In this document: one piece after another, positions 10,427 to 19,434 of the stretch
Numbering within the stretch: the first letter of the stretch is position 1
Layout: the number at the start of each line of letters is the position of its first letter
Origin: a virus
Length of the DNA stretch: 25,467 nt
IMG/VR virus record: IMGVR_UViG_3300042154_002453
Coordinates: 1 to 25,467 of that record
Reading direction: 5' to 3' (one strand)
Made by a program: the position numbers and the translations under genes
Notes under the pieces: generated by a model
The model's input: the letters and a program-made list of their open reading frames with translations, nothing else
Database searches by the model: none
Told to the model about the DNA's origin: nothing

Positions 10427-10798
10427 TTAAGCGTGCTTAATCATTTCATCAGTAGGAAACTTTACATATTTTACTGTCTCTTCTACCTTTATCTCACTGG
10501 CTCTGAAGTATCTACGAGCTTTTTTGCGTAGCATATCAGCCCTCATAAAGTATATTCTATCTCTAAGGTCAAAGTTTATAGCAAAGAACTCAATTCTAGT
10601 GTCAGAAATACCAGATGGTTTGCCATCACGTTCATATTCTATCCAAAAATACTTATTAATTAAGGCCATGGGTGCTTGAATAACTAGCACCTTAGTATTC
10701 TTTGCGAATAGTTTAATAGCTTGATAGGTACCATCTTGGTTACGAGCTTCTTCTATCTCAAACTTTCTTCTATTTCTATAGCCATTATACTTTGCCAT
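10427..10798 (-). CDS. Hypothetical replication-operon protein (123 aa)
   Basis: Basic N-terminus (MAKYNGYRNRRKFEIEEARN), a hydrophobic strand-helix centre (TKVLVIQAPMALINKYFWIE), then RDGKPSGISDTRIEFFAINF and a basic helix (ADMLRKKARRYFRASEIKVE). The mix of strands with conserved-looking acidic residues and a basic helix would suit a nucleic acid-binding or nuclease-like fold, but I cannot identify a catalytic motif. It directly follows the helicase gene with a one-base overlap of ATG and stop, so it is translated with it. Function unknown. Confidence 0.5.
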   Translation of the reverse strand: MAKYNGYRNRRKFEIEEARNQDGTYQAIKLFAKNTKVLVIQAPMALINKYFWIEYERDGKPSGISDTRIEFFAINFDLRDRIYFMRADMLRKKARRYFRASEIKVEETVKYVKFPTDEMIKHA

Positions 10799-12132
10799 TA
10801 CTTATAATCTATAAACGTCATAGTTTCTGGTAAAAATCTAAGAGCAATATTTTTAGTACTGCCATGTCTATTTTTTTCTACCTTACAAATAACTAAATCA
10901 TTAGTTGCATATTCTTTACCACCAATTTCTATTGGGTTAGTCATTTCGTAATAATTAGGCCTCATTAACATAATAACAGCATCAGCATCTTGCTCAATAG
11001 AACCAGATTCTCTAAGGTCAGAAAGCTGTGGCATCTTATCAGCTCTTTCTTCTACTTTACGAGATAATTGAGATAGGGCGATAATCGGTACTCCTAATTC
11101 TTTGGCTAAGGATTTAAGACTTCTACTAATCAAACTTACCTCTTGCTCTCGGTTTTGGTTTGTTTTGTTTTGTCCACTCATAAGTTGCAAGTAATCTATA
11201 AAGATGACCTTTATGCCATACTTCTGCTTCATTATGGTTGCTTTAGCTCTTAATTGGGAAATACCTATACCGCCCGTATCTTCAATATGTAGAGGGGATA
11301 GTAAAATCTTATCGTCAGACTTCAAAAGAATCCTTCTTTCTTCGTCATCCATTAAATTCATTCTAAGGCGTTTTAAGGGTATCATACTCGTAATTGACTC
11401 TAACCTTTCAACTAATTGTTCGGAGCTCATTTCGAGGCTAAAAATGGCCGCTGGTACCTTCTGTACGATACATAGATGGTAAATAGTAGAAAGCATAAAA
11501 GCTGTCTTACCCATTCCTGGTCTTGCAGCTATGATTACTAAGTCTGGTTTGCACCACCCTGCTAAAGTGTTATTTATCTCCTCAAATCCAGTATTAAATC
11601 CTAAAAGTTCACCACTTTGTGCTTTATCTCTAGCATAATTAAGGGTCATAATAACATCATCTATGCTTTTTTCGTGGATATTACCGAACTCTTGTAAAGC
11701 AATTACTTTACCGTTGACCGAGCTGAGTAAATCTATAGCTTGACTTTCGTTGTCTAAACACTCCATTTCTGATTGTTTAAACAGCATATAAGCCTCACGT
11801 TTTTTATATAGTTCTACTACCATGTCAATGTGTGTAGTAATATGAGAACCACCAGTTACATTATCAGTTAACTTTGAAAGGTAGTAGGCACCTCCTAATT
11901 CTTTTACGGTCTCATCGTTTACTAATTTCTGTGCTATTGTGGATAAGTCTATAGAAACATTATCATCGTACATTTTCTTAATCGTAGAAAAGACTTTTTG
12001 GTGTCCTAAGTCGTAAAATATTTCTGTTTTTAGATGGCCAACGACTAAAGGAAGTACTCTTTTGTCTAAAAGTATTGCACCAAGTATGTTTCTTTCTAGT
12101 TCCTTGCTATATGGCAATGTGACTGCTTCCAT
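10798..12132 (-). CDS. dnaB: Replicative DNA helicase, DnaB family (444 aa)
   Basis: Full-length hexameric helicase. Residues ~8-105 form the helical N-terminal domain (SKELERNILGAILLDKRVLP). The RecA-like ATPase domain has Walker A ARPGMGKT (203-210), FSLEMSSEQL (231-240), Walker B VIFIDYLQLM (309-318), the sensor ALSQLSRKVEER (352-363) and DLRESGSIEQDAD (372-384). It unwinds DNA at the fork, driving 5'-3' on the lagging strand, and would recruit host primase and polymerase, since none is encoded here. It follows the replication protein gene at 12132 with a one-base overlap. Length and motif spacing are those of an intact enzyme. Confidence 0.97.
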   Translation of the reverse strand: MEAVTLPYSKELERNILGAILLDKRVLPLVVGHLKTEIFYDLGHQKVFSTIKKMYDDNVSIDLSTIAQKLVNDETVKELGGAYYLSKLTDNVTGGSHITTHIDMVVELYKKREAYMLFKQSEMECLDNESQAIDLLSSVNGKVIALQEFGNIHEKSIDDVIMTLNYARDKAQSGELLGFNTGFEEINNTLAGWCKPDLVIIAARPGMGKTAFMLSTIYHLCIVQKVPAAIFSLEMSSEQLVERLESITSMIPLKRLRMNLMDDEERRILLKSDDKILLSPLHIEDTGGIGISQLRAKATIMKQKYGIKVIFIDYLQLMSGQNKTNQNREQEVSLISRSLKSLAKELGVPIIALSQLSRKVEERADKMPQLSDLRESGSIEQDADAVIMLMRPNYYEMTNPIEIGGKEYATNDLVICKVEKNRHGSTKNIALRFLPETMTFIDYK

Positions 12133-12734
12133 TATTTTAATTTAATCTTGGTTGTTGATGATTCTAAATTGTTACCAAATTGGTTACTGTTACGTTTCCA
12201 TGTTCTTACTGCTGCCTTCCAATCCTTCATAGGGTTTTTACCTATCAACCATCCTCTAGCCTCATAATGGTCTATAAATTGAGAGGCATCTAATGTAAAA
12301 CCAATTTCTTTAGAATATTCATTTACTAACTCAGCCGTAGGCCTAATAAATGTATTCTTATTGTTAGTATTATTGTTAGGTAAACTTTTTATACCGATTT
12401 CGGTAAAGTTTTTTGTATGCTCTGGTAAACTTTCTTTACCATTGGTAAACTTTTTGTAATCGTTTAAATATTCCATAAATACTGACGTTACACGTAAGTG
12501 TCTAGTAGCTATACTTTTCTGTATTAACTCCTTATCTAACAATGAGTTAATAATATTCATTATGGTTTGCTTGGATAGGTCAAGGTCCTTACCCATAGTT
12601 TCTTTGCTCATGTAGCACCAATGCGATTCATTATTCTGCATACGCATAATCGTATCTAATACGCAGTATTCATTGCACGAGAGATTAAATTCTTTCCGTA
12701 CTGGATGAATTATTGTTGTGTAAAATTGTGACAT
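12132..12734 (-). CDS. Replication protein with winged helix, helicase-loader-like (200 aa)
   Basis: The N-terminal ~95 residues look like a winged helix: NEYCVLDTIMRMQNNE, then MSKETMGKDLDLSKQTIMNI and an LLDKELIQKS wing. A polar Asn-rich linker (~120-128) leads to a C-terminal domain ending FIDHYEARGWLIGKNPMKDW and AVRTWKRN, a pattern common at the C-terminus of phage replisome-organiser and DnaD-like proteins. The immediate coupling to dnaB (one-base overlap) supports a role as origin-binding initiator or helicase loader. Which one cannot be decided from sequence. A candidate binding array is at 16746-17052. Confidence 0.7.
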   Translation of the reverse strand: MSQFYTTIIHPVRKEFNLSCNEYCVLDTIMRMQNNESHWCYMSKETMGKDLDLSKQTIMNIINSLLDKELIQKSIATRHLRVTSVFMEYLNDYKKFTNGKESLPEHTKNFTEIGIKSLPNNNTNNKNTFIRPTAELVNEYSKEIGFTLDASQFIDHYEARGWLIGKNPMKDWKAAVRTWKRNSNQFGNNLESSTTKIKLK

Positions 12735-15153: not shown

Positions 15154-15531
15154 TTATTGTAAGGCGTATATGTTATTTGGTGTAAATAATTGGTCCATAA
15201 CAGCATCGTATTTTTCCATGTAGAATGGTATTACTTCTATGTCGTTCACAAATGTGTGAATCCCATGTAGTATAGTTGTTCTATCCCTTTTAAAATGAGG
15301 AGCTATTTGAGCAGCTTTTTGGCAATATGCTGTATGCAATATGTAATATGCCATATTACGAGCTAAAACTAACTCTCTATTTCTCTTGGGACTTAACAAG
15401 TTTTTCATCTTTACTTCAAATACTTCGGTAACCGTTTCGATTAATTCGTTTATTAACTTGCGTTCTATCTTATAAACTTTGTTAATGTTTAAAGATTCTC
15501 TTGATGGTCTGCCTCTATTCACTGTAATCAT
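15154..15531 (-). CDS. Stand-alone DnaA domain IV-like protein (125 aa)
   Basis: Residues ~37-98 match the origin-binding domain IV of DnaA: VFEVKMKNLLSPKRNRELVL, then ARNMAYYILHTAYCQKAAQI and the signature-helix region FKRDRTTILHGIHTFVNDIE, which corresponds to the D-H-T-T-V-x-H segment of bacterial DnaA. There is no AAA+ domain, so it cannot oligomerise or melt DNA by itself. It may bind DnaA-box-like sites in the phage origin, or occupy host DnaA boxes and block host initiation. The gene lies ~1.2 kb from the repeat array at 16746-17052. The domain match is strong by motif; the role is inferred. Confidence 0.85.
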   Translation of the reverse strand: MITVNRGRPSRESLNINKVYKIERKLINELIETVTEVFEVKMKNLLSPKRNRELVLARNMAYYILHTAYCQKAAQIAPHFKRDRTTILHGIHTFVNDIEVIPFYMEKYDAVMDQLFTPNNIYALQ

Positions 15532-15712
15532 TTATTTGGTTTTTTAATGCTTCTAATTTTTTAGCATAATAAGCTGTAACAATTTCTACTGTCTCATAAT
15601 CGTGCTTATCTAAACGAGTCTTTAACAGATAAGGCGTAAGCCCAGTGATGGCACATATCTTTTTAATATCACCATGTTTAAGCATAGCCCGATAATCCTT
15701 AACTTCTATCAT
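15515..15712 (-). CDS. Small helix-turn-helix-like protein (65 aa)
   Basis: All-helical, with KHGDIKKICAITGLTPYLLK suggesting a helix-turn-helix (I-x-x-I-C-x-I-T-G-L-T-x-x-x-L), followed by ETVEIVTAYYAKKLEALKNQ, a second amphipathic helix that could dimerise. Probably a DNA-binding regulator of the early operon. It overlaps the DnaA-like gene by 17 nt and the upstream gene by 14 nt, so its position is tightly constrained. No family assignment beyond HTH character. Confidence 0.55.
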   Translation of the reverse strand: MIEVKDYRAMLKHGDIKKICAITGLTPYLLKTRLDKHDYETVEIVTAYYAKKLEALKNQINDYSE

Positions 15713-16448: not shown

Positions 16449-16655
16449 TTAATTGGTTTTTTTGTTTAATTTAGAATGTCTAGTAAAATAGGTTTTTTGG
16501 TCACCGATAACAGTTTTTTTCATGAGCATTTCATACTCATAGGCATCGATAACAGTCCTTGTGGTGTCGTTAAAGTAGACTTGTTCTCCTTTGCGAACTA
16601 ATCTACCAGTAAGACTGCAATGGCAGTCAAATGTTGCGGTAATTAATCTGAACAT
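16449..16655 (-). CDS. Hypothetical small protein (68 aa), first gene after the repeat array
   Basis: Sequence starts MFRLITATFDCHCSLTGRLV, with a C-H-C pair near residues 11-13 but no second Cys pair, so a zinc site is not supported. The centre is strand-rich (RKGEQVYFNDTTRTVIDAYE) and the C-terminus basic (YFTRHSKLNKKTN). It is the first gene transcribed away from the repeat region, and I found no TAnnTTTG promoter in the 80 nt before it. Confidence 0.5.
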   Translation of the reverse strand: MFRLITATFDCHCSLTGRLVRKGEQVYFNDTTRTVIDAYEYEMLMKKTVIGDQKTYFTRHSKLNKKTN

Positions 16656-16687
16656 AATTTGTAGTTTTTTGCTTTGGTTTAGTAAAA

Positions 16688-16740
16688 TTAAAGGTTTTTT
16701 GTTATTATTTAATATATTTTAGTTAAATTATTGTTAAAGG
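16688..16740. other. AT-rich segment, candidate unwinding element
   Basis: About 53 bp of almost pure A/T between the 68-aa gene and the first 11-bp repeat, including TTATTATTTAATATATTTTA and TAAATTATTG. Adjacent AT-rich and iteron-like DNA is the normal plan of a replication origin. The role is an inference from position. Confidence 0.45.
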
Positions 16741-16745
16741 ATAAA

Positions 16746-16862
16746 AAGTTTTTGTCTATAAAAGATTTTTGTCGGTGCTAGATTTTTGGCAGGTTTTTGT
16801 CCTCATTAGGTTTTTGGCAGGTTTTTGGCTGGCAGGTTTTTGTCCCTAGCAGGTTTTTGGGC
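16746..16862. repeat. Array of eight 11-bp repeats (iteron-like)
   Basis: Eight close copies of AGRTTTTTGKC begin at 16746, 16763, 16780, 16791, 16808, 16819, 16834 and 16851. The copies at 16808 and 16819 are identical (AGGTTTTTGGC), as are those at 16791 and 16834 (AGGTTTTTGTC); the last has one extra G. The starts step by 17, 17, 11, 17, 11, 15 and 17 bp. On the minus strand the element reads GMCAAAAACCT. Such direct repeats are typical binding sites for a replication initiator; DnaA-like, winged-helix and HTH proteins are encoded nearby. No gene is credible across this stretch. Confidence 0.85.
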
Positions 16863-16883
16863 CTATAAAATTTTGCTTGGGGA

Positions 16884-17052
16884 GTTTTTGTGTACTCAAT
16901 TTTTTTTTGTACGAAGTTTTGTGTACTCGAAAATTTTTTTTTGCTCGGTTTTGCATCTCGAAAAATTTTTTTTTACGTGTTTTGGTTCTCAAAAAAATTA
17001 TTTTTGGCGGTTTGTGTTCTCCAAAAAATTTTTTTTTCGTCTCTGTGTACTC
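16884..17052. repeat. Tandem ~32-bp repeats with phased A-tracts
   Basis: Five contiguous degenerate units start at 16884, 16916, 16948, 16979 and 17010, with a partial sixth at about 17042 and a trace near 17078. Each has a G(T)n head, a core GTGTACTC or variant (exact at 16890, 16921 and 17045; GTGTTCTC at 17014), then An-Tn (A2-7 followed by up to T9) and a CG-containing end. The A-to-T junctions fall at 16899, 16933, 16965, 16997 and 17028, spaced 34, 32, 32 and 31 bp, close to three helical turns. A-tracts in phase bend DNA. It is not a CRISPR array because there are no spacers. Confidence 0.85.
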
Positions 17053-17202
17053 GTTTTATCCTCTGTTTTTTAGCCTACGTACTCTAAATTATCATTTTAA
17101 GGGCTATTTTAGGCATCTTATGACTTTTCTAGTACTTGTATTACTATTGTAATAAAGTAGCTGTAAACGTCTTATTTTGCGTTAAATAGGTAATTTACTT
17201 AC

Positions 17203-17409
17203 TTACCTTGCTAAATGTTGAAACCATGCCTTTTGCTCTTTGCTTTGCTTTGCCTTTTGTTCGTTTATCCTTTTGCCATGCTTAATTAAATTAGCCAGTG
17301 CAAAGGGGTTAATATTTTTATCCAGTGCCATTTTCTCAATGGTTAGATAATTATTAACGTAATCGATGTACAAATGAAGGGCAAAGCCTTTGTTAATTGC
17401 TTTTCTCAT
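17203..17409 (-). CDS. Small helical, probably DNA-binding protein (68 aa)
   Basis: Sequence MRKAINKGFALHLYIDYVNN, YLTIEKMALDKNINPFALAN then LIKHGKRINEQKAKQSKEQK. The TIEKMALDKNINPFALANLI part reads like a helix-turn-helix (T-I-x-x-x-A ... x-x-L-x-x-L-I), followed by a strongly basic tail. It lies between the repeat array and a terminator, so it may be a separately expressed protein acting on the adjacent array. Family not identified. Confidence 0.5.
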   Translation of the reverse strand: MRKAINKGFALHLYIDYVNNYLTIEKMALDKNINPFALANLIKHGKRINEQKAKQSKEQKAWFQHLAR

Positions 17410-17430
17410 TGTGTTTTATCTGGTTAATAT

Positions 17431-17452
17431 AAAAGCCCAATTAAGGGCCTTT
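17431..17452 (-). terminator. Probable intrinsic terminator, minus strand
   Basis: Plus-strand AAAAGCCC (17431-17438) and GGGCCTTT (17445-17452) flank a 6-nt loop. On the minus strand this is AAAGGCCC-loop-GGGCTTTT, an 8-pair stem with one G-U, ending in a T run. It follows the 71-aa gene by about 30 nt and would separate the promoter-proximal early genes from those downstream. Confidence 0.6.
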
Positions 17453-19129: not shown

Positions 19130-19148
19130 GGTAGTAAGTTGTGCATAT

Positions 19149-19210
19149 ATTATATATTGTATATTGTATTATATAATGTATATTATATAATACATTATAT
19201 ATTGTATATT
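19149..19210. repeat. 17-bp direct repeat flanking a 30-bp palindrome
   Basis: ATTATATATTGTATATT occurs at 19149-19165 and again at 19194-19210. Between them lies a perfect inverted repeat, TGTATTATATAAT-GTAT-ATTATATAATACA (19165-19194), sharing one base with each repeat. All but a few bases are A or T. The symmetric layout is more ordered than simple AT richness. It could be an origin, a regulator cluster or an att-like site. Confidence 0.75.
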
Positions 19211-19434
19211 ATAATAAATAATATATCCTATATTATATTAGGACCGCTTTACCAGTTGCATCAGATTAAGCTAGTAACTATTTAGCTGGTGAGTTGTTAT
19301 GTTTTGCGATTGAGTCAGCAAGGATTATACATTAAAATAAATGAGCAAATACCCTACGAAAGTCCTCCTATTTAACATAATGCTAATTATAAGACAAAAG
19401 TATCATTGATTATCAGTACATTACATATTAAAAA

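Follow-up and report, generated by a model that had tools for sequence, protein, structure and literature searches.

Two distinct repeat arrays lie side by side in a gene-free stretch ahead of the replication genes of a tailed phage, and the question is whether they are its replication origin, as the initial annotation proposed, or serve another function. The window, i.e., the whole stretch of DNA that was analyzed, is a linear contig of 25,467 bases with genes for TerL, a portal protein, head morphogenesis and an endolysin. The early genes are encoded on the minus strand, which is also the natural orientation of the arrays, along the early operon. On this strand p17715 and p17481 are followed by a terminator-like hairpin, p17203, the repeat region (17053-16681), p16449 and further genes up to p15515, the gene for a DnaA-domain-IV protein and, further downstream, the genes for a winged-helix initiator and DnaB. 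A DNA similarity search against annotated phages gave no match, and no RNA family was matched in an RNA family search.

Two repeat arrays at the head of the replication operon

The region from 16656 to 17202 is indeed without a convincing gene, the listed open reading frames being repeats in translation. The 11-bp array (16746-16861, minus strand) consists of eight G(A/C)CAAAAA(C/T)CT elements, all in operon direction and spaced by 11-17 bp. The eight elements noticed earlier were borne out: six match GVCAAAAAYCT exactly on the minus strand and two have one mismatch. CAAAAAYYT is found eight times in the 130-bp cluster, versus a maximum of two in 1000 local dinucleotide shuffles. The adjoining long array (16862-17053, minus strand; unit GAGWACACAAAAC..CG plus A9T4-5) has a poorly preserved outermost unit (17044-17053). 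It had been described as composed of units of about 32 bp; the repetition was corroborated, with a lag-31 identity of 0.68 compared to a shuffle maximum of 0.52 (n=1000), while the unit length turned out to be mainly 31 bp (Tandem Repeats Finder: periods 31-32 across 16886-17052). Together, the arrays (16746-17053) present multiple direct repeats in one orientation, as in an iteron origin, and they are bounded by a terminator on one side and the replication operon on the other.

The reported step from the last 11-bp element into the long units is real. The CAAAA cores of the long units keep the register of the last 11-bp element every 30-32 bp (16859, 16890, 16921, 16953, 16984, 17014), and in five relatives (L090, L097, L168, L177, L189) the iteron-proximal long unit (GAGTACCAAAAATCC or GAGTGCCAAAAATCC) doubles as a perfect core of the 11-bp type. 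Both observations support the postulated common origin of the two repeat families, and on their account the long array seems to have grown out of the short one, its unit apparently lengthened, with an A-tract as the spacer, to three turns of the helix and its cores fading distally. It is restricted to few relatives, the five just named and L194, and a scan with the exact pattern retrieved only five stretches, none of them with genes of the family. An essential origin part was thus rejected as its role, since it is present in only a handful of relatives. Many others have palindromes such as AATGTTTAAACATT, TGTTGCAACA and GTTGTTTATGCAAC in its place (distal side; at least 81 distinct arrays).

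In a wedge model, the 31-bp array is predicted to be the most curved 93-bp stretch of the window (152 degrees). Across the family the curvature at the array site has a median of 95 degrees versus 79 degrees for random stretches, under the 95% point of the latter. The bent DNA of the initial annotation therefore holds as a strong predicted curvature in this phage, but not as a feature of the family.

On the operon side of the array lies a conserved A/T-rich segment (TTTAACAATAATTTAACTAAAATATATTAAATAATAACAAAAAACC; 16681-16738, minus strand), a candidate unwinding or UP-like element. What had been called nearly pure A/T (16688-16740) is A/T-rich, at about 87% A+T by letter count. The segment past the array (TTTAACAATAATTTAAC...) contains TTAACA in 62 of 71 relatives, with 83% A+T over 50 bp, and belongs to the five weakest duplex stretches of the window and of four of the ten long relatives; a candidate A/T-rich unwinding element adjacent to the repeats, as in iteron origins, is thus present at the array. 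Within it, a promoter -7-like box (TAATTTTA; 16683-16690, minus strand) precedes the start codon of p16449 by 35 bp. The box is found in 63 of 71 relatives, versus 9% of shuffles, at a median distance of 34 bp from the first start codon. The -7 consensus of Bacteroidota is TAnnTTTG/TAnnTTCG, for which a literature search returned nothing; TAATTTTA fits it in part only, and no -33 element was seen beside the box. Upstream of the array, an intrinsic terminator-like hairpin (GGCCCTTAATTGGGC) is followed by a T run (17427-17449, minus strand). A co-oriented terminator within 700 bp upstream of the array was detected at 51 of 76 loci, versus 0.4% of shuffles, and in only two of 222 pieces of equal length downstream. 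Because the terminator precedes the array, the replication operon needs its own promoter there. Both the terminator in front and the promoter-like box, whose distance from the first gene is fixed, are what is expected of a promoter/operator region.

Conservation of the array and its candidate reader

Scans of IMG/VR, by DnaB, by the DnaA protein and by the motif on its own, uncovered a large family of uncultured phages of the Bacteroidota type that share this gene order. The proposed comparison with related phages showed that the array is kept: all 28 loci that were found by protein alone, free of any use of the motif, and that have the array slot in view contain at least three units. At least 81 distinct arrays with at least 533 units were collected, with 4-10 asymmetric 9-11-bp sites each; the loci counted across the family are not independent events. 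The commonest spacing is 11 bp (37%), while 13, 15 and 17 bp are also common, so that the spacing across the 11-bp arrays is loosely helical (phase vector 0.30). Among the matches listed, the units in the extracted stretches share one orientation by 538 to 1. In counts over whole records the copies of the core are mostly at the place of the array, and they lie on one strand in 19 of 20 records. At loci without family genes, a scan for three elements mostly hit coding sequences or simple repeats, and six hits are clear arrays of the family type. The array and the DnaA-domain-IV gene are both absent from the relatives of p14254 (L226-L231; 47-70% identity), which come from Adhaeribacter, Cesiribacter, Hymenobacter and a Bacteroidetes MAG.

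The distal side of the array is variable, with palindromes in many relatives and the 31-bp array in few. Close relatives part from the window precisely at iteron boundaries (16788/16799), distal elements and upstream genes are swapped among relatives, and insertions of genes up to about 2 kb long occur within the array or next to it, among them cytosine-methylase-like genes and, within the array, small ORFs. The methylase-like genes (MAKILVACEESQ...), present in or beside the array in L011, L016, L074, L094, L127, L129, L166 and L169, carry 4-5 array elements on their coding strand, compared to about one after synonymous permutation, and some of these elements overlap start or stop codons. Upstream of the array, p17203 (17203-17409) and the corresponding genes of L004, L035, L045, L061, L083, L090 and L097 encode unrelated small proteins with a similar tail, approximately (E/Q)(Y/H)LA(K/R/N)*, which was spotted by eye. 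The shared tail suggests that gene bodies are exchanged while the 3' end is fixed.

Which protein might read the array? The neighboring replication genes named in the initial annotation, for DnaA domain IV, DnaB and a winged-helix/replication-initiation protein, were all confirmed. The stand-alone DnaA domain IV protein (15154-15531, minus strand; Pfam Bac_DnaA_C, E 5.8e-16) has the RD[R/H][T/S]T signature and no ATPase, and its gene is present in all 80 loci that span its slot. The 11-bp sites are asymmetric 9-11-mers, a form that would suit a protein binding as a monomer, such as DnaA domain IV, and the array is probably read by this protein. As its recognition helix varies (RDRT/RDHT) and the 11-bp site has no matching change, the binding is put forward as a proposal. 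DnaA boxes of the TTATNCACA type are not enriched in the window (61 observed versus 89 expected). The product of p16449 (16449-16655, minus strand; 68 aa), the first gene past the array, is unlikely to be the binder, since it is absent from some relatives that retain the array, and the winged helix of the initiator was rejected as the binder of the 11-bp array for lack of co-variation. The conserved 65-aa helical protein p15515 (15515-15712, minus strand) has a helix-turn-helix-like arrangement in its predicted model.

Repeats within the initiator gene

A second set of repeats was found in the initiator gene (12132-12734, minus strand), directly upstream of the gene for the DnaB-type replicative helicase (10798-12132, minus strand). 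The initiator has an N-terminal winged helix (type T1), a disordered linker and a C-terminal domain; its predicted structure resembles winged-helix/MarR/DnaD proteins only. Four repeats (GGTA)AAAAA(G/C)TTTACC (12379-12460, minus strand) encode the linker, which is disordered in the predicted model. They adjoin an A/T-rich segment (TAACAATAATACTAACAATAAGAATACATTTATTA; 12343-12378, minus strand), although the A/T content next to them is modest (in the window, 0.775 across 40 bp; for types T1-T3, 0.72-0.78 across 50 bp, versus a gene mean of 0.685).

Among 74 distinct initiator genes, a conserved C-terminal part is combined with five unrelated types of N-domains (T1 47, T2 10, T3 6, T4 5, T5 6 genes), and the linker repeats differ by type (RAAASTTTACY, CCGANKTC, TTGCA, CAGCCGAAAA-like and TATTCGGAA, respectively). 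All 74 genes contain at least two copies of the repeat of their own type, and none contains two or more copies of that of another type. The motifs were defined by inspection of the same linkers, and therefore the agreement of each gene with its own type is partly given by construction, in contrast to the absence of foreign repeats and to a synonymous-codon permutation test, in which own-type repeats exceeded the expectation for T1, T2, T3 and T5. The N-domain and the in-gene repeats are seen to be exchanged jointly, in front of the conserved C-terminal part and dnaB. The sites within the initiator genes are largely palindromic, as would be expected for dimers.

The 11-bp array, with its 4-10 units, is unchanged across all five types of N-domains, while the in-gene repeats co-vary with them, which weakens the interpretation of the array as the origin. 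The repeats of an iteron origin would be cognate to the initiator, and this is not the case for an array that is the same with five unrelated N-domains. The features of an in-gene origin are present in the initiator gene, i.e., repeats between the domains of the initiator that are cognate to its DNA-binding domain, with A/T-rich DNA next to them. Judged from sequence comparison, the more likely and best origin candidate is thus the set of in-gene repeats, 4.3 kb from the arrays. One may even suppose, with considerable reserve, that two separate recognition systems for replication exist throughout the family, a fixed array of new 9-bp sites with the DnaA-domain-IV protein and an exchangeable cassette of initiator domain and origin repeats in five unrelated types.

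Control region or origin

Our preferred, if tentative, interpretation, which we place slightly below an even chance, is that the array region heads the replication operon (p16449 to dnaB) as its control region. A row of 4-10 sites of 9-11 bp, all pointing the same way and joined in this phage by the curved 31-bp A-tract version of the site, would be recognized by a DNA-binding protein of the phage. The most likely reader is the stand-alone DnaA-domain-IV protein, which is encoded 1.2 kb downstream. Once bound, the reader would control transcription initiation at the neighboring A/T-rich, promoter-like segment, and the transcript would lead to the initiator and the helicase and also pass through the likely true origin inside the initiator gene, where the winged-helix domain of the initiator itself would bind (the plan of lambda O and SPP1 gp38). 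In this scheme the identity of the binder, the promoter activity and the functions of array and in-gene repeats are inferred. Against it, the sites are located about 65-200 bp upstream of the -7-like box, far for a classical activator, the box was seen without a -33 element and matches the consensus only in part, and repeats with A/T-rich DNA would suit an iteron origin as well.

The possibility that the array is a replication origin, be it the main one or one that exists in addition to the in-gene origin, is a serious one, even if we rather doubt it. DnaA-IV would then bind the 11-bp iterons, the curved 31-bp array would help wrapping, and the A/T-rich TTTAAC segment would melt for the loading of DnaB. 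The adjoining conserved A/T-rich segment, the single array of this kind per genome on one strand, the strong predicted curvature in this phage and the universal DnaA-IV gene are in line with such an arrangement, and SPP1, which has two origins, oriL and oriR, provides a precedent. In addition, a contig of a relative (L083, 1-5461; sample 3300020042) closes on itself via a 121-bp end repeat to a 5.34-kb circle, which contains the array, the DnaA-IV gene and early genes, but neither the initiator gene nor dnaB; this also speaks against the control region. Its junction runs from p12890 to the gene upstream of p17715. The circle may stem from a deletion, or it may have been produced by the assembly, as its end repeat resembles a k-mer overlap. 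In the same sample, positions 1-185 of contig L001 have an inverted junction, at which window position 15683 is joined to 12963, near the junction of L083. Apart from the constancy of the array under swaps of the initiator domain, several findings disfavor an origin at this site. The unit spacing is only loosely helical, in contrast to most plasmid iterons (PMC5043065), the curvature is not shared by the family, and genes of up to about 2 kb sit in or beside the array. The suggested GC-skew check gave no pointer to the array, as the skew follows the gene strand: in five relatives with end repeats its extremes coincide with changes of the coding strand, 1.1-3.6 kb upstream and 7.3-9.1 kb downstream of the array. 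From the original proposal, the layout, the conservation, the shared ancestry of the repeats and the neighboring proteins have thus been retained, but not the array as the site of action of the initiator.

Two further explanations have a lower probability. Very improbably, the origin is a tandem repeat of A/T-rich sequence (19145-19240), located in the gap from which early and late genes diverge. This repeat contains the least stable 60 bp of the window, each of the ten long relatives has its weakest stretch 1.5-3.3 kb upstream of the array, the minimum of the detrended GC skew lies 1.1-3.6 kb upstream of the array, and AT tandem repeats recur in the divergent gap; however, the skew is explained by gene-strand switching, divergent promoters are expected in that gap, and low-complexity AT repeats have no initiator-like sites. 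It is also unlikely, if less so, that the array serves a different process as a docking site, for instance in genome partition, packaging or recombination; one such role would be that of a joint between modules at which upstream gene cassettes and inserted methylase genes are exchanged. The divergence of close relatives at iteron boundaries, the exchange of distal elements and upstream genes, and the insertion of small ORFs and of methylase-like genes, some with more elements than expected, would fit a joint, but breakpoints within repeats are an expected by-product. Moreover, the array is situated in the early operon, distant from terS (19730), and its strict single orientation and its conserved A/T-rich, promoter-like neighbors suggest a regulatory or replicative role.

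The main yield of the analysis is the second set of repeats, in the initiator gene, with its five-way match; the conserved array is the probable switch of the replication operon. Two short regions can be tested cheaply, the predicted pairs being the winged-helix initiator with the repeats of its own gene and DnaA-IV with the array at 16.7-17.0 kb. If the five-way match holds, these phages offer natural orthogonal pairs of initiators and origins and a direct test of the evolution of initiator specificity.

A literature search, within the limits of the collection searched, yielded no description of such a system, nor did it turn up an origin or a control region of replication in phages of this group. 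The closest parallels to the in-gene repeats are known from SPP1, whose oriL is part of gene 38 and serves as the binding site of gp38 (PMC6316719), and from lambda, in which the repeats are inside the initiator gene O (PMC5043065, PMC7466680) and transcriptional activation of the origin is required (PMC5043065). As at 12343-12460, repeats and A/T-rich DNA lie in an initiator gene next to that of a DnaB-type helicase or its loader. In contrast to SPP1 and lambda, the N-domain in front of the conserved C-terminal part appears to have been swapped among five unrelated types that come with repeats of their own. The array itself resembles the iteron origins of plasmids (P1, RK2, R6K, pSC101), with 4-10 short direct repeats in one orientation and an A/T-rich neighbor, but it differs by its loosely helical spacing and the lack of co-variation with the initiator, and its promoter-like box and upstream terminator suggest a start of transcription. 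The origin of chromosome 2 of Vibrio cholerae contains 12-mers and 39-mers that are bound by RctB, and as in this phage a short and a long family of sites adjoin. However, there is no RctB here, and the 31-mers, present in few phages only, cannot be an essential inhibitory element. Lastly, the asymmetric sites of about 9 bp in one orientation are reminiscent of DnaA boxes, and the phage protein shares the RD(H/R)(T/S)T signature of domain IV, but CAAAAAYCY differs from TTATNCACA and the phage protein has no AAA+ domain. A DnaA domain IV protein that stands alone and has an array of sites to itself would represent a new use of the DNA-binding domain of DnaA.
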